64,000 nt of DNA from Microbacterium testaceum (GTDB lineage Bacteria > Actinomycetota > Actinomycetes > Actinomycetales > Microbacteriaceae): the NCBI RefSeq assembly GCF_029761935.1, contig NZ_CP121699.1, forward strand, positions 3,224,001-3,288,000. The letters run 5' to 3'. Shown here piece by piece: positions 8,892-35,355 of the stretch. The translations under genes were made by a program, and so were the position numbers. The notes beneath the pieces were generated by a model, which saw only the letters and a program-made list of their open reading frames with translations, did no database searches and was not told the DNA's origin. Each line of letters starts with the position of its first letter. The first letter of the stretch is position 1.

Positions 8892-8964
8892 GCCTCCGTA
8901 GCTCAGGGGATAGAGCGCCGCACTCCTAACGCGGGCGTCGCAGGTTCGAATCCTGTCGGGGGCA
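8892..8964 (+). tRNA. tRNA-Arg (anticodon CCT)
   Basis: The 73-base cloverleaf has acceptor GCCTCCG/CGGGGGC with one T-G pair, D-stem GCTC/GAGC, and T-stem GCAGG/CCTGT with loop TTCGAAT. The anticodon loop CTCCTAA gives anticodon CCT, reading AGG. The bottom pair of the anticodon stem is an A-C mismatch. The discriminator is A and the CCA end is not encoded. Confidence 0.96.
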
Positions 8965-9111
8965 CTCCATCGCGACGTCGCCGTCGCATCTTCTTCTGCG
9001 CTCGGCGCGACGCACCCCGCGCGCGACGTCGCTTCGGCAGCGTCCGACGTGCCGTGATTCCGACGACGTCCGTCTCGGCGTTGCCTCCCCGCGTACCGCC
9101 GTGGCATGATT

Positions 9112-26275: not shown

Positions 26276-26809
26276 TCAGGCCGAGGCGCGCAGAGTCTCG
26301 CCGAGGATCACGTCGCTCTCGAGCGAGAGCAGGTATTCCTTCACCTCGGGGTGGCCGCCGTATTCGCCGATCGAGCCGTCGGCGCGGACGACCCGGTGCA
26401 CCGGGACGACGATCGAGAACGGCGACGACGCGCACGCCGTTCCCACCGCGCGGGCTGCTCGCGGGGCTCCGGCCATCATCGACACCTCGCCGTACGAGGC
26501 GACTTCGCCGTAGGGGATCTCGAGAGTGGCCTCGAGCGCAGCGCGGGTGAATCCGCGGGCGAAGCGCCAGTCGAGGGCGACGTCGAAGGCCCGTCGCGTC
26601 CCGTCGAAGTACTCCTCGAGCTGCGAGACCAAGGGGTGGTCCGTGGGCCGATGGTGCTCGGGGACGACCCCGAGACGGTGCGCGATCTCGGCGCGCGCGA
26701 TCTCGAGACCGTCGAGGGCCACATGCAGACGCACGAGGGCGTCGTCGACGAAGGTCAGCAGGATCGGCCCGATGGGGCTGTCGTATTCGGTGCTGGTGAC
26801 TCTGTTCAT
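26276..26809 (-). CDS. Ogt/MGMT-like alkyltransferase homologue lacking the acceptor Cys
   Basis: This 177-residue protein has the two-domain Ogt layout: an N-terminal RNase-H-like domain (YDSPIGPILLTFVDDALVRL) and the C-terminal DNA-binding domain with IPYGEVASYGEVSMMAGAPR, the arginine finger region AARAVGTA, and SPFSIVVPVHRVVRADG. In true alkylguanine transferases the last motif is PCHRV with the methyl-accepting Cys. Here codon 26399-26401 is GTG on the coding strand, so residue 137 is Val. Known alkyltransferase-like proteins have Trp or Ala there and bind damage for nucleotide excision repair. It should therefore be unable to repair O6-alkylguanine directly. Length and remaining motifs are intact, so it is not a decayed gene. 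Confidence 0.9.
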   Translation of the reverse strand: MNRVTSTEYDSPIGPILLTFVDDALVRLHVALDGLEIARAEIAHRLGVVPEHHRPTDHPLVSQLEEYFDGTRRAFDVALDWRFARGFTRAALEATLEIPYGEVASYGEVSMMAGAPRAARAVGTACASSPFSIVVPVHRVVRADGSIGEYGGHPEVKEYLLSLESDVILGETLRASA

Positions 26810-26971
26810 GCGCTCATCCTCATGACCGTGCCCGGGGCGTGCGCCGCGATCGCGCGCGAAGGGGGAGGATCTCGCCGACTCCCCGCCTGGGGAGGAAGAG
26901 CCGGTGGCGCGGCGTGTCGCTGATTACCGCGAAACTCGGGCCCGCTGCGCACGATCCCGCACTGCCCGGCT

Positions 26972-27008: not shown

Positions 27009-30000
27009 GTGATCGGCGCTGACGGAGACGAGACGGTGTCGTCCGTCGATCCCGGCGACCTGCGATTGTCGGAACCCGGCATCGTGGTTCGCCACGTGGC
27101 CGACCCCGAACGCGACCGGATCCGGTCCGAGGCTGCGGCTCTCGGCGGACGATCGACCCTCCTGCGCTTCGACGACGCCCGCGATGCCGGCATCGACATC
27201 ACGAAGGCGCACCCGGGTTCGCTCCCGCAGTTCATCACGGGTCGCGCGACGATGCTGTCGAACCTCTTCCGCGACGAGGTGGCCCTGCGCACGGCCCGCA
27301 TGGCCGCCGAGCGCATCACGGCCAAGAACGTCGAGCTGCGCACCGCGCGCGGCCTCGAGCCCGTGCACCTCGCGGTGGGCCTGTCGGCGTGGAAGATCGG
27401 GGGAGTGGAGTGGTCCGCTCCGGTCCTCCTCCGCCCGCTCGCCATCCGCCGCCACCACGGCGACTTCGAGCTGAAGCTGCACGGCGCGTTCGTCATGAAC
27501 CCCGAGCTCGCTCGCGCGTTCCGCACGCACCTCGGCATCCAGATCGATCCCGCGGCTCTCGCGGGCCTCGCCTACGACCAGGGCGTGTTCAAGCCGCAGC
27601 CGGTCATCGACCACATCCGCCGCCTCACCTCGCACGTGCCGACCTTCGTCGTGCACCCGCGCCTGGTGATCTCGTCGTTCGCCGATGTCGGATCGGGTAT
27701 GGCTCGTGACACGCACGACCTCGACCACACCCTCTTGAACGCGCTCGCCGGTCACCCCGACGACCGCGCGCGCATCACGGTGCGTCGCGACGACCCGCAG
27801 GTCGTGAGCCCCGACGAGCGCACTCCCGCTGCCGACACCCTGCTCCTCGACGCGGATGCCGAGCAGGAGCGTGTCCTCGCCCGCATCGCCGCGGGGCAGT
27901 CGCTCGCCGTGCACACCCTTCCCGGCACGGGCGGCACGCAGACGGTCATCAACGCGATCGGGCAGCTCGTCCACGACAACAAGCGCGTGCTCGTGGTCAG
28001 TGCCCGTCGCTCGACGCTCGACGGCATCCGTCACCGTCTGGCCGGAGTCGGCCTCACGGGTCTCGCCGTCTCTCCGAACCACGTGCGTCGCGACCTCATC
28101 CGCGCGATCGGTCGCAATGAGAAGGCCGAGCAGCCGAAGGTCGCCGAGATCGACGACGCCCTCGTGCGTCTGCGCACGGTCCTGCGCGACTACCGTTCCG
28201 CCGTGACCGAGCCGCACCTCGCGTTGGGCGTCTCGGCGCTCGACATCCTGCGCGCGCTGACGTCGTTGGCATCCACTTCTCCCGCTCCGTCGACCGAGGC
28301 CCGCTTCGATCTCGCGACCCTCGAGAGACTCGCCGGACGACGAGATGCCGCGGCCCGGGCGCTCGCGATGGCCGCGCGCCTCGGCGAGTTCCGCTTCGGG
28401 CCCGACGATTCGCCGTGGTACGGCGTCAGCTTCTCGCGGACCGAGGACGCGCGTGCGGCGCACGATCTCGCGGGCAAGCTCCACAGCAGCGACGTTCCTC
28501 GTCTGCTCGAGCGCGGGTACGAGCTCATCGCGCAGACGCGCATGCGCCCGTTCCAGACGGTGTCCGAGCTCGGGTCGTACCTGAAGCTCCTGCAGGGCAT
28601 CCGCGAGTCGCTCGATCGCTTCAGCCCGAGTGTCTTCGAGCGTCCGCTCGGCGAGCTCATCGACGCGCACTCGCCGCGCCGCGACGCCTCCGCGATGAGC
28701 GGTCCCAACCGTCGTCGCCTCAAGCGGCTGTCGAAGGAGTACGTGCGCCCGGGCGTCCACGTGCCCGACATGTACGAGGCGCTCGTGCGCATCCAGCAGC
28801 AGCGCACGGAGTGGCAGCGCGTCGTCGACGCCGGCGTCACCCCCGAGGTGCCGCTGGGTCTCGCCGACGTCCACGTCGCGTGGCAGCGCACCGACGCCCT
28901 GCTCGGCGAACTCGATCAGATCCTCGGCCGTCAAGGCTCCGAGCGCCTCGCGACCCTGCCCGTGCAGCGTCTCGTGCGCACCCTCGCCGGTCTCGCCGCG
29001 GAGTCGACCTTCTTCGACAACCTCGTCGAGCGCGCTCAACTGCGTTCCGAGCTCGCGCGGCTGGGTCTCGAGCAGCTCCTCGTCGAGCTCTCGGTGCGCC
29101 ACGTTCCCGAAGAGCGCGTGGGGGCCGAACTCGAGTTCGCGTGGTGGCAGTCGGCCCTCGAGCATTTGCTGCGCACCGACCGTGCTCTTCTCGGTGCGAA
29201 CACGAGCGTCGTCGACCGTCTCGAGCGCGATTTCCGTCTCGTCGACGAGGCCCACGCCGCTGCGGCCGGCCCGCTGCTCGCCGCTCAGCTCGCGACGCAG
29301 TGGCGTATCGGCATCGTCGATCACGCCGACGAGGCGGCCGCCCTCAAGCGCGTCCTCAAGGACGGCCTGCACACGGCGCAGGAGATGTCGGATGCCGCGC
29401 CCATCCTGCTGCGCACGCTCGCGCCGGTGTGGCTCGCGTCGCCGTACGAGGTTCCCGACGTTCCGACCGATCTCGCGTTCGATGTCGTCATCATCGCGGA
29501 TGCCGCGGCCCTGTGCCTCGCCGAGGCGGCCCCGGCTCTGCGCCGGGCTCGCCAGGTCGTGCTGTTCGGCGACCCGGTGGTGCAAAAGCCCACCCCCTTC
29601 CGCGTGAGCGCGTCGATCGCCGCCGGCCCCGACGAGGCCGACGAGGTCCCCTTCGACGAGACCTCGGTCTTCGAGCGCATCGCCGAGCTGCTGCCCGTCG
29701 AGACGCTCACCCGCAGCTACCGCGCCGGCGGCGAGGATCTCTCGCAGCTGGTGAACGACGCCTTCTACGGCGGAGAGATCGTCTCGCTTCCCTGGGCCGG
29801 TTCGTACCTCGGCCGCGGCAGCCTGAGCGTCGATTACGTCGAGGGTGGTGTCGGTGCCCCCGACCCCGTCAGCGGCGCGGTCGAGAGCCCCGATGCCGAG
29901 GTCGCCCGCGTCGTCACGCTCGTCGTCGAGCACGCCGTGAACCGCGCGTCCGAATCGCTCATGGTCGTCACCGCCAGCCGCAAGCACGCAGAGCGCGTGC

Positions 30001-30716
30001 GTGCCTCGGTCGTGGCGGCGTTGGCCGGACGCTCCGACGTCGCCGAGTTCATCTCGAGGGATGCCGCCGAGCCCTTCGCCGTGCTGACGCTCGAAGAGTC
30101 CGTGGCCGAGAGTCGCGACCGCGTGGTGTTCTCGCTCGGCTTCGGTCTCACGCGCCACGGTCGCGTACTGAGCGACTTCGGCGACCTGTCGACGCCCGAT
30201 GGGGAGCGACTGCTCACCGTCGGGATGACGCGCGCCCGCCGCTCGATGGTGATCGTGTCATCGATCCGTCCCTCGGCGTTCGACGACGGCCGCCTCGAGC
30301 ACGGTGCCGCGACCCTCATGGGCATTCTGGGCAATGTCGCGTCGCGCAGCCGTGAGACGCGCCTCGAAGACCTGGCCGACCCGCTGACCCGCGCCCTGGC
30401 GCGCGAACTGCGCAGACTCGGCATCGAAGTCGACGTCGATTACCGCGGGTTGCTTCCGCTCGTCGCTCGCTACCAGGGCAAGGCGGTGGTGGCCGAGAGC
30501 GATCCCGAGACCATCGGCGAATCCCTCCGCGAGACCCTCCGTCTGCGGCCGCAGATCCTCCGCCGCCTCGGCTGGCACTACGTGCGCGTGCACGCGTTCG
30601 ACCTGTACAGCGACCCCGCCGGAGTGGCATCCCGTATCGGGGAACTCCTGGGGATCGCTCCCGACGACGCGGTCGCCCCCGACGCGACCACCGAGTCGCT
30701 CGATCTTCCCGACTGA
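27009..30716 (+). CDS. Large SF1-helicase-like protein with degenerate ATPase motifs
   Basis: This 1235-residue protein resembles UPF1/DUF4011-type superfamily I helicases. The Walker A position reads LPGTGGTQTVINAIGQ; Gly309 replaces the catalytic Lys of GTGKT. Walker B reads VVIIADAAAL; Ala830-Asp831 replace Asp-Glu. Motif III (VVLFGDPVVQKP), motif IV (TLTRSYRAGGE) and motif VI (VGMTRARRSMVIVSS) look normal. The C-terminal 110 residues recall a Vsr-like nuclease domain but lack its usual acidic/Lys set (ESDPETIG). An N-terminal 270-residue region and a helical insert (about 450-800) flank the core. It is probably a non-hydrolysing scaffold or regulator. The start GTG 27009 is inferred from GAGGA seven bases upstream and the -10 box; GTG 26904 is the alternative. 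Confidence 0.85.
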   Translation: MIGADGDETVSSVDPGDLRLSEPGIVVRHVADPERDRIRSEAAALGGRSTLLRFDDARDAGIDITKAHPGSLPQFITGRATMLSNLFRDEVALRTARMAAERITAKNVELRTARGLEPVHLAVGLSAWKIGGVEWSAPVLLRPLAIRRHHGDFELKLHGAFVMNPELARAFRTHLGIQIDPAALAGLAYDQGVFKPQPVIDHIRRLTSHVPTFVVHPRLVISSFADVGSGMARDTHDLDHTLLNALAGHPDDRARITVRRDDPQVVSPDERTPAADTLLLDADAEQERVLARIAAGQSLAVHTLPGTGGTQTVINAIGQLVHDNKRVLVVSARRSTLDGIRHRLAGVGLTGLAVSPNHVRRDLIRAIGRNEKAEQPKVAEIDDALVRLRTVLRDYRSAVTEPHLALGVSALDILRALTSLASTSPAPSTEARFDLATLERLAGRRDAAARALAMAARLGEFRFGPDDSPWYGVSFSRTEDARAAHDLAGKLHSSDVPRLLERGYELIAQTRMRPFQTVSELGSYLKLLQGIRESLDRFSPSVFERPLGELIDAHSPRRDASAMSGPNRRRLKRLSKEYVRPGVHVPDMYEALVRIQQQRTEWQRVVDAGVTPEVPLGLADVHVAWQRTDALLGELDQILGRQGSERLATLPVQRLVRTLAGLAAESTFFDNLVERAQLRSELARLGLEQLLVELSVRHVPEERVGAELEFAWWQSALEHLLRTDRALLGANTSVVDRLERDFRLVDEAHAAAAGPLLAAQLATQWRIGIVDHADEAAALKRVLKDGLHTAQEMSDAAPILLRTLAPVWLASPYEVPDVPTDLAFDVVIIADAAALCLAEAAPALRRARQVVLFGDPVVQKPTPFRVSASIAAGPDEADEVPFDETSVFERIAELLPVETLTRSYRAGGEDLSQLVNDAFYGGEIVSLPWAGSYLGRGSLSVDYVEGGVGAPDPVSGAVESPDAEVARVVTLVVEHAVNRASESLMVVTASRKHAERVRASVVAALAGRSDVAEFISRDAAEPFAVLTLEESVAESRDRVVFSLGFGLTRHGRVLSDFGDLSTPDGERLLTVGMTRARRSMVIVSSIRPSAFDDGRLEHGAATLMGILGNVASRSRETRLEDLADPLTRALARELRRLGIEVDVDYRGLLPLVARYQGKAVVAESDPETIGESLRETLRLRPQILRRLGWHYVRVHAFDLYSDPAGVASRIGELLGIAPDDAVAPDATTESLDLPD

Positions 30717-31035: not shown

Positions 31036-31455
31036 TCAGAGTTTGTTCTGGCGCTCCAGCAGGTCGCGGATCTGCACGAGCAGCTCCTGCTCCGTCGGCA
31101 GCTTCGGCTCGTCCGAGGCGGGCTCGTTCACCCCGGCGCGCGCGGCCGCGATTGCCTTCCACCGGTTCATCGGGTAGACGAACACGAGGTAGACGACGAT
31201 CGCCACGGCGAAGAAGCTGATGATCGCGGAGAGCAGGGTGGGGAGGGGGAAGACCACTTCCTGCCCGTAGATGCCCGTGATCGTTGGCCCGACCTCGCCG
31301 TTCTCGGCGGGCTTGTAGAACACCTCGATCAGCGGGGTGATGACCGCCGCGACGATGGCGTTGACGACCGCCGTGAACGCCGCGCCGATGACCACCGCGA
31401 CGGCGAGGTCGATGACGTTCCCACGGAGGATGAACTCCTTGAATCCCTTGATCAT
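31036..31455 (-). CDS. mscL: Large-conductance mechanosensitive channel MscL
   Basis: This 139-residue protein opens under membrane tension to release solutes during hypo-osmotic shock. MIKGFKEFILRGNVIDLAVA forms the amphipathic N-terminal helix and start of TM1. TM2 is LLSAIISFFAVAIVVYLVFV followed by PMNRW. The C-terminal helix bundle ends EQELLVQIRDLLERQNKL. The length matches the family. It is the last gene of a minus-strand cluster behind fmdB (34-base gap). Confidence 0.97.
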   Translation of the reverse strand: MIKGFKEFILRGNVIDLAVAVVIGAAFTAVVNAIVAAVITPLIEVFYKPAENGEVGPTITGIYGQEVVFPLPTLLSAIISFFAVAIVVYLVFVYPMNRWKAIAAARAGVNEPASDEPKLPTEQELLVQIRDLLERQNKL

Positions 31456-31489: not shown

Positions 31490-31759
31490 TCAGGAGGCCG
31501 AGGACGGGGCGGACGACGTCGATTCCGACTTCGATGATGTCGAAGAACCGGTCGAGCCGCTACCGGACCCGCCGGAGGTGGAGCTGCGGGAGTCGGTGCG
31601 GTAGAACCCCGAGCCGTTGAACGTCACGCCGATCGATCCGTACTGCTTGCGCACCTCGCCGCCGCACTCGGGGCACTCGGTGAGGGCAGCGTCCGCGAAC
31701 GACTGGACCGCGTCGAAACGGTGACCGCACTGCTTGCAGGCGTAGGAGTAGGTGGGCAT
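31490..31759 (-). CDS. FmdB-type zinc-ribbon protein
   Basis: This 89-residue protein has a single FmdB zinc ribbon: MPTYSYACKQCGHRFDAVQ and CPECGGEVRK supply two CxxC pairs. A Ser/Gly-rich disordered tail of about 35 residues follows. FmdB-family proteins are small putative regulators with no settled function in actinobacteria. The start is supported by the universal MPTY N-terminus. It lies 17 bases behind the 5-formyl-THF cyclo-ligase gene. Confidence 0.93.
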   Translation of the reverse strand: MPTYSYACKQCGHRFDAVQSFADAALTECPECGGEVRKQYGSIGVTFNGSGFYRTDSRSSTSGGSGSGSTGSSTSSKSESTSSAPSSAS

Positions 31760-31776: not shown

Positions 31777-32373
31777 TCAGGAGGTGTGGGCGGCGAGCGG
31801 CAGCGTGCGCGTGGGGGTGACCACGCCCGTGACGGGCTGGTCGTGCACGTCGCGCGGCACGTCGTCGATGAGCTCGGAGTCGAAGATGACCGCGTACACC
31901 GGCGGGCACTTCTCCATCGAGCCGAGGGTCTTGTCGAAGTAGCCGCGACCCCAGCCGAGGCGCATGCCCTGGTGATCGACGGCGGCCGCCGGGATGATCA
32001 GGAGGTCGACGTCGTTGACGGCGATCGGCCCCAGAACGTCACCGATCGGTTCGGGAAGCCCGAACAGTCCCTCGGTGATCTCGGTGTCGGGAGTGGCCAC
32101 GCTCCAGTCGAGCAGACCGTCTTCGCGGGTGATCGGGAGCAGGACCCGGATGCCGCGCCCCACCGCCGCGCGAACGAAGGCGTGCGTGCCGGGCTCGGTG
32201 GGGGTCGACAGGAAACACGAGATGCTGCGCGCGCCGAGGCGGGCGACGAGGGCGTCGAGCTGCTCTGTGACGCCGGCCTCGGCCACCTCGCGCGCATGGG
32301 CGGAGATGGTCTGGCGGCGTTCGCGCAGATCGGCGCGGAGGGCGCGCTTGGCCTGCTCGATACGATCCGGCAT
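31777..32373 (-). CDS. 5-formyltetrahydrofolate cyclo-ligase
   Basis: This 198-residue enzyme converts 5-formyl-THF to 5,10-methenyl-THF with ATP. The N-terminal basic helix (KRALRADLRERRQTIS) and the folate/ATP motif MRLGWGRGYFDKTLG are both present, with VDLLIIPAAAVDHQG before the latter. The length is standard. A -10 box TAGACT lies six bases before the ATG, so its mRNA appears leaderless. It heads the cluster with fmdB and mscL and is divergent from galU. Confidence 0.94.
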   Translation of the reverse strand: MPDRIEQAKRALRADLRERRQTISAHAREVAEAGVTEQLDALVARLGARSISCFLSTPTEPGTHAFVRAAVGRGIRVLLPITREDGLLDWSVATPDTEITEGLFGLPEPIGDVLGPIAVNDVDLLIIPAAAVDHQGMRLGWGRGYFDKTLGSMEKCPPVYAVIFDSELIDDVPRDVHDQPVTGVVTPTRTLPLAAHTS

Positions 32374-32429: not shown

Positions 32430-32435
32430 ATGCCC

Positions 32436-33329
32436 ATGCCTCACAAGCCCTTCAAGGCCGTCATCCCGGCCGCCGGACTCGGTACGCGCTTCCTGCCCGC
32501 CACGAAGGCGATGCCCAAAGAGATGCTGCCCGTCGTCGACAAGCCGGCCATCCAGTACGTCGTCGAAGAGGCGACCGGTGCCGGCATCGAAGACGTCCTG
32601 ATCATCATCGGTCGCAACAAGAACAACATCGCCAACCACTTCGACTCCATGCCCGAGCTCGAGGCGAAGCTGCGCGAGAAGGGCGACGACGACAAGCTCG
32701 CCAAGGTCGAGCACTCATCCGAGCTCGCCGACATCCACATGGTGCGTCAGGGCGAGCCGAAGGGGCTGGGTCACGCGGTGCTGCGTGCGCGCAGCCACGT
32801 CGGCGACCACCCTTTCGCCGTCCTGCTGGGCGACGACCTCATCGACGAGCGCGACCCTCTGCTCACCAAGATGATGGACGAGTACGACAAGCGCGGCGGT
32901 GCCACCGTCATCGCGCTGATGGAAGTCGATCCCGCCCACATCCACCTCTACGGTGTCGCCGCCGTCGAGGCCACCGACGAAGAAGACGTCGTCAAGGTCA
33001 CGCAGCTCGTCGAGAAGCCCAAGGCCGAAGACGCGCCCTCGAACCTGGCGATCATCGGTCGCTACGTTCTCGGTCCCGACGTCTTCGACATCCTCGAGCG
33101 CACCGAGCCCGGCAAGGGCGGCGAGATCCAGCTGACCGATGCCCTCGAAGAGCTCGCGACCGGTGGTGGCGACGGCGGCGGCGTGTACGGCGTCGTCTTC
33201 CGCGGACGTCGTTACGACACCGGCGACCGTGTCGACTACATCAAGGCGATCGTGCAGCTGGCTGCCGACCGCGACGACCTCGGCCCCGCCCTCCGCCCCT
33301 GGTTCAAGGAGTTCGCGCAGGGTCTCTGA
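32436..33329 (+). CDS. galU: UTP-glucose-1-phosphate uridylyltransferase GalU
   Basis: This 297-residue enzyme makes UDP-glucose for cell-wall and capsular polysaccharides. The nucleotide-binding signature AAGLGTRFLPATKAMPKEML starts near residue 12. LLGDDLIDE, QLVEKPKAEDAP and IIGRYVLGPDVFDIL are further family motifs. The ATG at 32436 is preferred because the -10 box ends six bases upstream. A GNAT acetyltransferase follows after 15 bases and is probably co-transcribed. Confidence 0.97.
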   Translation: MPHKPFKAVIPAAGLGTRFLPATKAMPKEMLPVVDKPAIQYVVEEATGAGIEDVLIIIGRNKNNIANHFDSMPELEAKLREKGDDDKLAKVEHSSELADIHMVRQGEPKGLGHAVLRARSHVGDHPFAVLLGDDLIDERDPLLTKMMDEYDKRGGATVIALMEVDPAHIHLYGVAAVEATDEEDVVKVTQLVEKPKAEDAPSNLAIIGRYVLGPDVFDILERTEPGKGGEIQLTDALEELATGGGDGGGVYGVVFRGRRYDTGDRVDYIKAIVQLAADRDDLGPALRPWFKEFAQGL

Positions 33330-33344
33330 CCCGGGCAAGACGCC

Positions 33345-33968
33345 ATGGATCTGTCCGTCCCCCGGCGGCACGGCGACGTGTCGATCCGTCTCATCCGCAA
33401 TCGCGATGCGCGCGTCCTCCAGCAGCAGCTGATCGACAACCGCTCGTGGTTGAAGCGGTGGGAGGCGACCAGCCCCGACGGTCCCGTGTCGTTCGACATG
33501 CGCCTCGGCATCCGTCGTCTTCTGCAGCAGTACCGTGACGGCGTCGGCGTCCCCTTCGTGATGGCGTGGGACGACGACGTCGCCGGGCAGCTCAACGTGT
33601 GGGGGGTGTCGCGCGGATCGCTGGCGTCGGCGACGATCGGCTACTGGGTCGCCGAGGAGTTCGCGGGTCGCAACATCACCACGATCAGCGTGGCGATGGC
33701 GACCGACGTGTGCTTCACCGAGCTCAACCTGCACCGCGTCGAAATCTGCATCCGGCCCGAGAACCACGCCAGCCTGCGGGTGGTCGAGAAGCTCGGCTTC
33801 CGTTACGAGGGATTGCGGCGCAAGTACATCCACATCGACGGCGATTGGCGCGACCACTACGCCTTCGCCCTCGTGCGCGAAGAGGTTCCGTACGGGGTGT
33901 TGGATCGCTACGTGCGGGGGCAGGTCCCGCCGGATGCCGCTCGCGTTCCTCCTTCGGATCGGGTCTGA
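33345..33968 (+). CDS. GNAT acetyltransferase (RimJ-like)
   Basis: This 207-residue protein has the RimJ/RimL-type GNAT fold. VAGQLNVWGVSRG marks the central strands, FAGRNITTISVAMATDVCF the acetyl-CoA pyrophosphate region, and NLHRVEICIRPENHASLRVV with EKLGFRYEGLRRKYIHIDG the C-terminal signature. The substrate may be a ribosomal protein N-terminus, but this is not shown by sequence. Its position behind galU is conserved in related actinobacteria as far as I recall. Confidence 0.9.
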   Translation: MDLSVPRRHGDVSIRLIRNRDARVLQQQLIDNRSWLKRWEATSPDGPVSFDMRLGIRRLLQQYRDGVGVPFVMAWDDDVAGQLNVWGVSRGSLASATIGYWVAEEFAGRNITTISVAMATDVCFTELNLHRVEICIRPENHASLRVVEKLGFRYEGLRRKYIHIDGDWRDHYAFALVREEVPYGVLDRYVRGQVPPDAARVPPSDRV

Positions 33969-34056
33969 ACGGTTCCGTTGCGATCCGCCTCCGGTACGTG
34001 GCGAAAGTCTCGTCGCGACACGCCGGGGGATGCCGAGGTGTGATCTCTCGGTGACC

Positions 34057-34062
34057 TACCTT
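34057..34062 (+). promoter_or_regulatory. -10 box TACCTT, leaderless start of the coiled-coil gene
   Basis: TACCTT is followed by TATGGC and then the ATG at 34069, again with a six-base spacing. Confidence 0.55.
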
Positions 34063-34068
34063 TATGGC

Positions 34069-35130
34069 ATGGGTGGGCAGGTTCTCAGCGGCGGCGTGAT
34101 CGTCTTCGTCGCGGTCGCGCTCTGGCTCGTCTATCTGCTTCCGTCGTGGCAGAGCCGTCACCGGTTCACCTCCGCCGAACGCAATGCCGTGCGTCTCAAC
34201 CAGGCGCTGCGCGTGCTCGCCGAGACAGCCGAGACGCCCCGAGAGGTCCGGCTGGAGCTGACGGCGCGCACCGCCCACCAACAGCAGAAGCTCGCGCGCC
34301 AGATCCAGGCTGAGAAGGCCCAGACCGAGCTCGCCGCGGCCAAGGCACGACTCGAGGTGGCTCGTCTCGAGAGTGCCCGCGATCGCGATGTCGTCAAGGA
34401 GCAGCGTGCCGCGGCCGTGGACCTGGCTCGTGCCGAGCGTGCCGCGGCCGTCGAGGTCGCTCGCGCCGAACGCGCTGCCGCCCTCGAGAAGACCCGCGCC
34501 GAGCGTGCCGCTGCCGTCGAGCGCGCGCACGCGGAGCGCGCCGCGGCCGTTGCGCGCCCCGAGGCTCGTCGAGTCCGTGCTCGCCGCCGCTTCCGTCTGA
34601 GCGTGACCACGGTGGCCCTTGCAGGCCTTGTCGCCGCGCTGGCCGGCCTCGCGCAGGTCGTCACCGGGGGAGCGCCGGTGCTGCTCTCTCTCGGGTCGGT
34701 CGTCGTCGTGGCATCCCTCGTCGTCCTCCGCCGCATCTCGGTCGTGGCCGCCCGCACGGCGCCTGTGTCCGTTGCGACATCGGTGGCGACGCGCACGGTC
34801 GCGACCGAAGTGCAGGACGTCGCCCTCGTGCCCGAGCCGCGCCCCACGTGGACGCCTCGCGAGCTTCCGCGCCCGCTCGTCGCGTCGGCCGGGTCGCGTG
34901 CCGCCGCCGTGGTCGACGAGCAGATCGCCCGCGAGGCGCTGCGCGCCGCCGCCCGCGAGGAGGCCGCGCGCGAGCTCGCCGCCGAGCAGGCTCCCACCCC
35001 GATCGAGACGGCTCGTCCGGCCGCTGTCGCCCCCGCTCCGTCGCCGTATGCCGCGATGGGGTACGTCGACGACTCGGAGATCCAGGATCACGTTCAGCGG
35101 CTCCTGGCGCGTCGCGCGTCGGGGGAGTGA
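34069..35130 (+). CDS. Membrane protein with 11-residue (hendecad) coiled-coil repeats
   Basis: This 353-residue protein of unknown function begins with a membrane segment (GGVIVFVAVALWLVYLLPSW), then a long charged helix (about 35-165), then two more hydrophobic segments (VTTVALAGLVAALAGLAQVV, APVLLSLGSVVVVASLVVL), and an Ala-rich C-terminal region with a second helix. The first helix contains five consecutive 11-residue units beginning AAAV or AAAL and mostly ending AER, encoded by 33-bp repeats at 34408-34572. An 11-residue period is typical of right-handed coiled coils. The start is the leaderless ATG at 34069. It is the last protein gene before tRNA-Ala. Confidence 0.85.
   Translation: MGGQVLSGGVIVFVAVALWLVYLLPSWQSRHRFTSAERNAVRLNQALRVLAETAETPREVRLELTARTAHQQQKLARQIQAEKAQTELAAAKARLEVARLESARDRDVVKEQRAAAVDLARAERAAAVEVARAERAAALEKTRAERAAAVERAHAERAAAVARPEARRVRARRRFRLSVTTVALAGLVAALAGLAQVVTGGAPVLLSLGSVVVVASLVVLRRISVVAARTAPVSVATSVATRTVATEVQDVALVPEPRPTWTPRELPRPLVASAGSRAAAVVDEQIAREALRAAAREEAARELAAEQAPTPIETARPAAVAPAPSPYAAMGYVDDSEIQDHVQRLLARRASGE
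34408..34572 (+). repeat. Five 33-bp repeats encoding hendecads
   Basis: Units at 34408, 34441, 34474, 34507 and 34540 each encode 11 residues on the plan AAAVxxARAER. The unit boundaries are exact, but the last unit is diverged (AAAVARPEARR). Confidence 0.9.
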
Positions 35131-35279: not shown

Positions 35280-35355
35280 GGGCCTGTGGCGCAGTTGGTA
35301 GCGCGCCTCGTTCGCATCGAGGAGGTCAGGGGTTCGAATCCCCTCAGGTCCACCA
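35280..35355 (+). tRNA. tRNA-Ala (anticodon CGC)
   Basis: The cloverleaf has acceptor GGGCCTG/CAGGTCC, D-stem GCGC/GCGC, anticodon stem CCTCG/CGAGG with loop TTCGCAT (anticodon CGC), and T-stem AGGGG/CCCCT with loop TTCGAAT. The discriminator A at 35352 is followed by an encoded CCA, unlike the tRNA-Arg in this window. Confidence 0.97.

Follow-up and report, generated by a model that had tools for sequence, protein, structure and literature searches.

Superfamily 1 folds without a motor and the gene of Microbacterium testaceum

RecC and AddB, which belong to the UvrD-like branch of superfamily 1 (SF1), combine an SF1 helicase fold whose ATPase motifs have degenerated with a nuclease or nuclease-like domain, serve as scaffolds or sensors, and act in complex with active subunits. 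The PriA protein of Deinococcus radiodurans, as described in PMC4504706, is a conserved pseudohelicase whose motifs have degenerated in a bacterial lineage and which has kept its binding to DNA and to partners. As judged from profile comparisons, the nearest described relatives of the gene analyzed here are the DUF4011 helicase-nucleases PDC-S37, ProA, and Hhe, named as anti-phage or defence candidates; a DUF4011 gene of Pseudomonas aeruginosa likewise counts among the core genes and borders a defence hotspot (PMC10250203). The gene lies in a 64-kb window of the Microbacterium testaceum genome (contig NZ_CP121699.1, positions 3,224,001 to 3,288,000; “the window” denotes this whole stretch of 64,000 nucleotides). 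It is an open reading frame at 27009-30716 of the forward strand that encodes 1235 amino acids and contains no internal stop codons. No work recognized as being about this gene was found in the openly licensed PubMed Central literature.

The explanation judged best, and on balance probable, is that this gene derives from a DUF4011-type SF1B helicase-nuclease that was fixed in the chromosome, was disarmed stepwise, and would now act without ATP hydrolysis as a clamp or scaffold. The protein resembles PDC-S37, ProA, and Hhe in sequence across the helicase lobes and the C-terminal region; unlike them, it has lost Walker A, Walker B, motif V, and the nuclease center, and its gene is a core gene found mostly at one locus. 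It shares degenerate SF1 ATPase motifs and a nuclease-like domain with RecC and AddB, but no active helicase-nuclease subunit is encoded beside it in the near neighborhood, to which the search for partners was confined. With D. radiodurans PriA it shares motif decay in a conserved helicase of a bacterial lineage (PMC4504706); PriA comes from a different helicase family, one whose pathway is known, and the loss in the present gene recurred at one locus.

Fixed loss of the catalytic residues in Microbacteriaceae

The first-pass annotation, made from the sequence letters, had recognized a helicase-like protein, and structure prediction agrees with it: the model contains two RecA-like lobes in a UPF1/IGHMBP2/Dna2-type SF1B fold. 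Unlike those helicases, the protein has neither the Walker A Lys nor the Walker B Asp-Glu that mark an active SF1B (UPF1-like) enzyme, its first lobe is interrupted by a helical insertion of 420 residues, and its C terminus carries a degenerate nuclease-like domain. A fold search with the insertion (residues 371 to 790) gave no useful match. Residues 40 to 235 correspond to the DUF4011 region of the ATPase-intact relatives (PF13195 was found in L035, the Angustibacter orthologue). An alternative in-frame GTG at 26904 would give a product of 1270 amino acids.

The closest solved folds are the RNA helicases of the UPF1/IGHMBP2/SETX group, and the mycobacterial RNA polymerase-bound HelD is found among the Foldseek rows at ranks 40 and 50. 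Together with a near-universal retention that is compatible with a central process, these matches could point to a non-hydrolyzing UPF1/IGHMBP2-like or HelD-like factor that works on RNA polymerase, the ribosome, or RNA. However, the DNA-acting Dna2 and UvrD score in the same range, so that the fold leaves the substrate undecided; the closest sequence relatives are defence-type helicase-nucleases, and the landmark-mapped loci show no genomic association with RNA genes. An RNA-side role is considered unlikely.

Presence was tallied as any match with an E value of 1e-3 or better, and some of these matches cover only part of the protein or probably come from paralogues (e.g., G180, 5.9e-23). By this measure, the gene is found in all 35 Microbacterium genomes searched (its own and 34 others), over almost the full length, with one match divided between contigs (G016) and additional weak matches in another genome (G007). 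It is found in 149 of 150 species and in all 85 genera of Microbacteriaceae. At the class level, 37 of 148 genomes match, 10 of them from the order of the window and many of the others through short pieces. The loci used for motif reading were picked by hand and include 103 from Microbacteriaceae, out of 182 matching genomes; the motif tables cover 192 of 193 loci, with L193 (100 bases, mis-fetched) excluded and L128 stopping before motif II.

The first-pass annotation had placed Gly309 at the Walker A Lys position and Ala830-Asp831 at Walker B, and both residues and coordinates are exact. A base-calling error at 27933-27935 or 29496-29501 is ruled out, as all 35 Microbacterium loci have Gly309 and an xD pair at Walker B (AD in 23, VD in 12), and all 103 Microbacteriaceae loci lack both the Lys and the Asp-Glu. 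Among the latter, the Lys position is occupied by Gly (73 loci), Ala (9), Tyr (6), Val (5), Leu (4), Ile (2), Ser (2), Thr (1), or Arg (1), and the Walker B pair is VD (55), AD (26), LD (16), MD (3), ID (2), or LG (1), which leaves 102 of 103 with Asp in place of the Glu. Gly also occupies the Lys position in all 120 database matches listed for the window protein. Motifs III, IV, and VI had been described as kept. This holds for IV and VI; motif III retains its Gly-Asp but not its Gln. The loss of the motif V Gln-Gly pair was absent from that description.

Comparison with 44 ATPase-intact proteins revealed 212 columns that are invariant (95%) in that set, of which 75 keep the same residue in at least 95% of the 103 Microbacteriaceae loci, among them Gln286, Pro305, Gly306, Gly308, Gln311, Asp825, Gly854-Asp855, Tyr904-Arg905, Asp1165, and Trp1189. 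Compared with the intact set, the Microbacteriaceae proteins no longer have Lys309, Asp830, or Glu831 (replaced by Asp in 99%), nor the Gln of motif III or the Gln-Gly of motif V, and 28 positions are near-invariant in the dead set only. Since the Gln (presumably of the Q motif, on the adenine side), the P-loop glycines, and the motif III, IV, and VI residues are kept, the RecA-like lobes may still close on nucleic acid or be set by nucleotide. The same residues, with Thr310 retained from Walker A and the Asp at the Walker B Glu position, would also suit a nucleotide-controlled switch or weak motor that still binds nucleotide and perhaps hydrolyzes it slowly in an unusual way. Against such a switch stand the absence of Lys309 and Asp830, of the Gln of motif III, and of the Gln-Gly of motif V; the nine different residues at the Lys position, a free variation expected if the position is unimportant; and the loss of the glycines in other dead families. 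A nucleotide switch is considered unlikely.

The first-pass annotation regarded the gene as an intact pseudo-helicase and not a decaying gene, which is borne out by the fixed motif loss, the full-length reading frames, the shared locus, and low ratios of nonsynonymous to synonymous substitution rates (dN/dS). Nei-Gojobori dN/dS values are 0.048 to 0.101 against the six nearest species read, and 0.029 to 0.133 in all five stretches measured against L006; selection on the gene is purifying. No frameshifts or deletions were found among the 35 Microbacterium loci read (L008 ends at a contig end). The protein thus combines a helicase fold, fixed loss of the catalytic residues, and retention by selection, as expected of a pseudohelicase. 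The dead protein is retained even in genomes of less than 1 Mb. In one of these (L092 from G072, 0.93 Mb), it has 1172 amino acids and no Pfam match at the threshold used. A relic heading for loss and retained by chance would fit the progressive loss of motifs across families, with further motifs lost in the deepest branches. Such a relic is highly improbable, given the dN/dS of 0.05-0.10 for near species, which extends over all domains of the protein, the open reading frames of the family matches scanned, for which no more than one stop is listed, and the retention in the smallest genomes.

Database entries for the homologues are usually named “AAA family ATPase.”

ATPase-intact relatives and repeated loss

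Homologues that keep both the Lys and the Asp-Glu, which the first-pass annotation had named as contrary evidence, are not found among the 103 Microbacteriaceae loci, but two other families carry them at this locus. Among 89 loci outside Microbacteriaceae, 11 are intact in this sense: 2 of 3 in f5, 8 of 12 in f18, and the single f45 locus (family labels are codes of the search tool). Family f5 is Angustibacter, and f18 is the Pedococcus/Knoellia family, including Pedococcus, Phycicoccus, Nostocoides, Knoellia, and Flexivirga. The intact f5 and f18 copies adjoin the gene for MscL, and the f45 copy has no landmark. The presence of intact copies at the same locus in two families points to the ancestral state and does not make the Microbacteriaceae protein active. 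Of the 120 matches listed for the Angustibacter protein, 115 have the Lys and 115 the Asp-Glu.

In f18, where 78 of 79 genomes match, 73 loci were read: 42 are intact, 7 have either the Lys or the Asp-Glu only (half-dead), and 24 have neither (dead). MscL is in place in 32 of 42 intact, 6 of 7 half-dead, and 23 of 24 dead copies, some of the remainder being on short stretches. The seven half-dead copies (L223, L238, L259, L235, L261, L232, and L251), with Lys and no Asp-Glu or the converse, represent, judging by their motifs, naturally occurring intermediate stages of ATPase loss.

The losses were counted on two trees, one of 104 rows, rooted with ATPase-intact proteins of other phyla and with the motif columns removed (seven duplicate loci and L275, L276, L281, L128, L184, and L187 were left out), and one of 52 rows, a hand-picked subset analyzed with a mixture model; 21 of 80 named loci (L262 to L282) were aligned. 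Under a loss-only model, the 104-row tree requires 13 losses, or 9 once branches with less than 95% support are collapsed, and the 52-row tree requires 10 and 8. Forcing the 16 dead rows of the 52-row tree into one group costs 210 log units (P value of the approximately unbiased test, 9.1e-7), which rejects the idea that the dead state arose only once. These quick trees, some of whose branches are long, give good support to multiple losses but not to a particular number. In an order-wide tree of 89 proteins, 22 groups require 21 label changes, the minimum possible.

The nuclease-like domain was disarmed as well. The first-pass annotation had it lacking its acidic/Lys set, which is correct for the first Asp (now Pro1150), and the His is also gone, but Glu1163 and Asp1165 are kept. 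Its score against PF18741 (REase_MTES_1575) is 20.3 bits, below the gathering cut-off of 38.2, compared to 71.2 for L035; the same domain is annotated in the database for orthologues such as P0022, P0034, and P0039. An ancestral Tyr-His is present in all 7 outgroup proteins, and the His in 5 of 7 actinobacterial relatives that lack the landmarks; its conservation suggests that this residue is catalytic. In the 44 ATPase-intact f5 and f18 proteins, the His column contains no His (Ala in 38, Gly in 5, Gln in 1), with Asp in 43, Glu in 38, and Asp-Gly in all 44; a His one residue earlier occurs in a few proteins (2 of the 44, and L042).

ATPase-intact relatives without the landmarks are found in many phyla and in three named actinobacterial strains. 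These three, with the DUF4011/SF1/MTES_1575 architecture, are Microbacterium sp. oral taxon 186, Arthrobacter sp. C2, and Micromonospora sp. C31 (L271, L274, and L270); their genes are probably active, mobile relatives of the fixed one.

Locus, defence relatives, and the proposed role of the protein

In 162 of 192 loci (98 of 103 in Microbacteriaceae and 64 of 89 elsewhere), at least one landmark gene lies where it is expected and in the expected orientation; this includes all loci of f18 (12), f6 (8), f9 (7), and f4 (5) and 6 of the 7 loci of f38, a class-level family. A relative was scored as displaced when no landmark lay within the fetched flank. Upstream, the alkyltransferase gene points away from the pseudo-helicase gene, and downstream the mscL, zinc-ribbon, and cyclo-ligase genes point toward it, so that, with oppositely oriented flanking genes, it looks like its own transcription unit (Table 1). 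The small dedicated partner once proposed for the protein finds no support: the flanking genes are on the opposite strand, and neighbor clustering, which is noisy and covers the near neighborhood, found no small codirectional gene that recurs. We take the zinc-ribbon protein to be FmdB-like, the nucleotidyl transferase GalU-like, and the acetyltransferase RimJ-like. Further downstream, a 398-amino-acid protein with no Pfam match (33934-35130), presumably SepX-like, is conserved in 26 of the 103 loci from Microbacteriaceae; the fetched flanks of these 103 often stop short of it. The window also contains genes for tRNA-Arg (cct; 8892-8965) and tRNA-Ala (cgc; 35280-35355).

Table 1. Features of the pseudo-helicase gene and its surroundings (window coordinates)
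Feature	Coordinates	Strand	Remarks
Pseudo-helicase coding sequence	27009..30716	+	1235 aa, GTG start; database homologues 1235-1239 aa
N-terminal region with beta domain, aa 40-235	27126..27713	+	Secondary structure of model
Gln286, Q-motif-like Gln, retained	27864..27866	+	Alignment columns, window codon
Motif I (Walker A), PGTGGTQ	27921..27941	+	Gly309 at Lys position, codon GGC 27933-27935; alignment, codon reading
Large helical insertion, aa 371-790	28119..29378	+	Splits first RecA-like lobe into halves; model
Motif II (Walker B)	29496..29501	+	Ala830-Asp831 (GCG GAT) in place of Asp-Glu; context VVIIADAAA
Motif III	29568..29573	+	Gly854-Asp855 retained; Gln position is Val858
Motif IV	29718..29723	+	Tyr904-Arg905 retained
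Motif V	30102..30107	+	Val1032-Ala1033 in place of Gln-Gly
Motif VI	30228..30239	+	TRAR (Arg1075) retained
Degenerate nuclease-like domain (REase_MTES_1575 type), aa 1120-1218	30366..30662	+	Profile, 20.3 bits, below cut-off
6-O-methylguanine DNA methyltransferase family (alkyltransferase)	26276..26809	-	Upstream neighbor
MscL	31036..31455	-	Convergent downstream neighbor, locus landmark
Zinc-ribbon protein	31490..31759	-	Landmark
5-Formyltetrahydrofolate cyclo-ligase	31777..32373	-	Landmark
Nucleotidyl transferase	32430..33329	+	Landmark
GNAT acetyltransferase	33345..33968	+	Landmark

The possibility that the protein still serves immunity, as a dead DUF4011 helicase-nuclease acting as a phage sensor, regulator, or decoy, draws on its similarity to the PADLOC candidate profile PDC-S37 (E value of 1.1e-84, 283 bits; the library has no cut-off) and to the NCBIfam models ProA (NF058533; 277.6 bits, below the curated cut-off of 1500) and Hhe (NF042953; 135.7 bits, below the curated cut-off of 2000), as well as on the intact landmark-less cousins in Microbacterium, Arthrobacter, and Micromonospora. 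The intact orthologue L035 scores 777 bits with ProA and 804 bits with PDC-S37, and it too remains below the NCBIfam cut-offs. However, patchy defence genes differ from a gene that is near-universal, mostly confined to one locus, and kept in genomes of less than 1 Mb; both catalytic centers are lost, and no partner gene is adjacent. Continued immune function is quite unlikely. The gene cautions against reading “defence system” or “active ATPase” from a family name.

The sequence of events in the favored explanation would start with a DUF4011-type SF1B helicase-nuclease fixed in the chromosome of this actinobacterial order, mostly beside mscL. The pattern of the tabulated copies suggests that the nuclease His went first, as it is gone from its column even in the ATPase-intact ones. 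The pattern also shows that the Walker A Lys and the Walker B Asp-Glu were lost more than once in different lineages, Microbacteriaceae being one of them, with the full-length protein kept under purifying selection. In Microbacteriaceae, the protein would then need no ATP hydrolysis for its work; it would most likely be a clamp or scaffold, with the large helical insertion holding partner proteins. A clamp or scaffold appears to be the most economical idea, by analogy with D. radiodurans PriA (PMC4504706). Given that nearly all relatives searched keep the gene, mostly in the same place, and that the loss recurred, its job is probably one that needs no ATP hydrolysis.

Several observations weigh against this explanation. 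If regain is allowed, the 104-row tree needs 7 changes and the 52-row tree needs 5; counting only the loss of both motifs under the loss-only model gives 10 losses on the 104-row tree and 7 on the 52-row tree, or 7 and 5, respectively, once weakly supported branches are collapsed. All trees were quick searches with long branches flagged, f18 and f14 each fail to form one clade in the order-wide tree, and the f18 loss counts come from gene trees and might include replacement by transfer inside f18. In several f18 copies the change is mild (DE to EE or DD), and some activity may survive there. Families f3, f4, f9, f10, f14, and f20 have also largely lost motifs III, IV, and VI, so that a function shared there cannot be core-mediated binding. 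The dN/dS, computed for this gene alone, climbs to 0.20-0.27 against four more distant Microbacterium species and reaches 0.82 with L035, a comparison in which synonymous sites have changed too much for dS to be estimated well. Landmarks are absent in 30 of 192 loci (f12 has them in 0 of 5 loci, f20 in 1 of 4), partly because the stretches end. Gln286, the P-loop glycines, Thr310, and Arg905 suit a nucleotide-binding or slow-turnover protein equally well, and the clamp or scaffold step is one that we infer from sequence.

In its broadest form, the proposal has about an even chance of being right: a phage-defence-type helicase-nuclease would have been captured near the root of the order, its nuclease disarmed first and its ATPase many times in parallel, and it would now be an ATP-independent, possibly essential, order-wide scaffold kept in genomes of less than 1 Mb. 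A mostly single-copy core gene of nearly the whole order, encoding more than 1200 residues, would then be a helicase kept by selection after repeated loss of its motor. If so, an ATP-independent job outweighs the helicase activity, and a protein of defence type has turned to housekeeping. Neighboring genera present a natural experiment, with ATPase-intact, half-dead, and dead versions of the protein at the same place, which makes the ATP-independent function directly testable.

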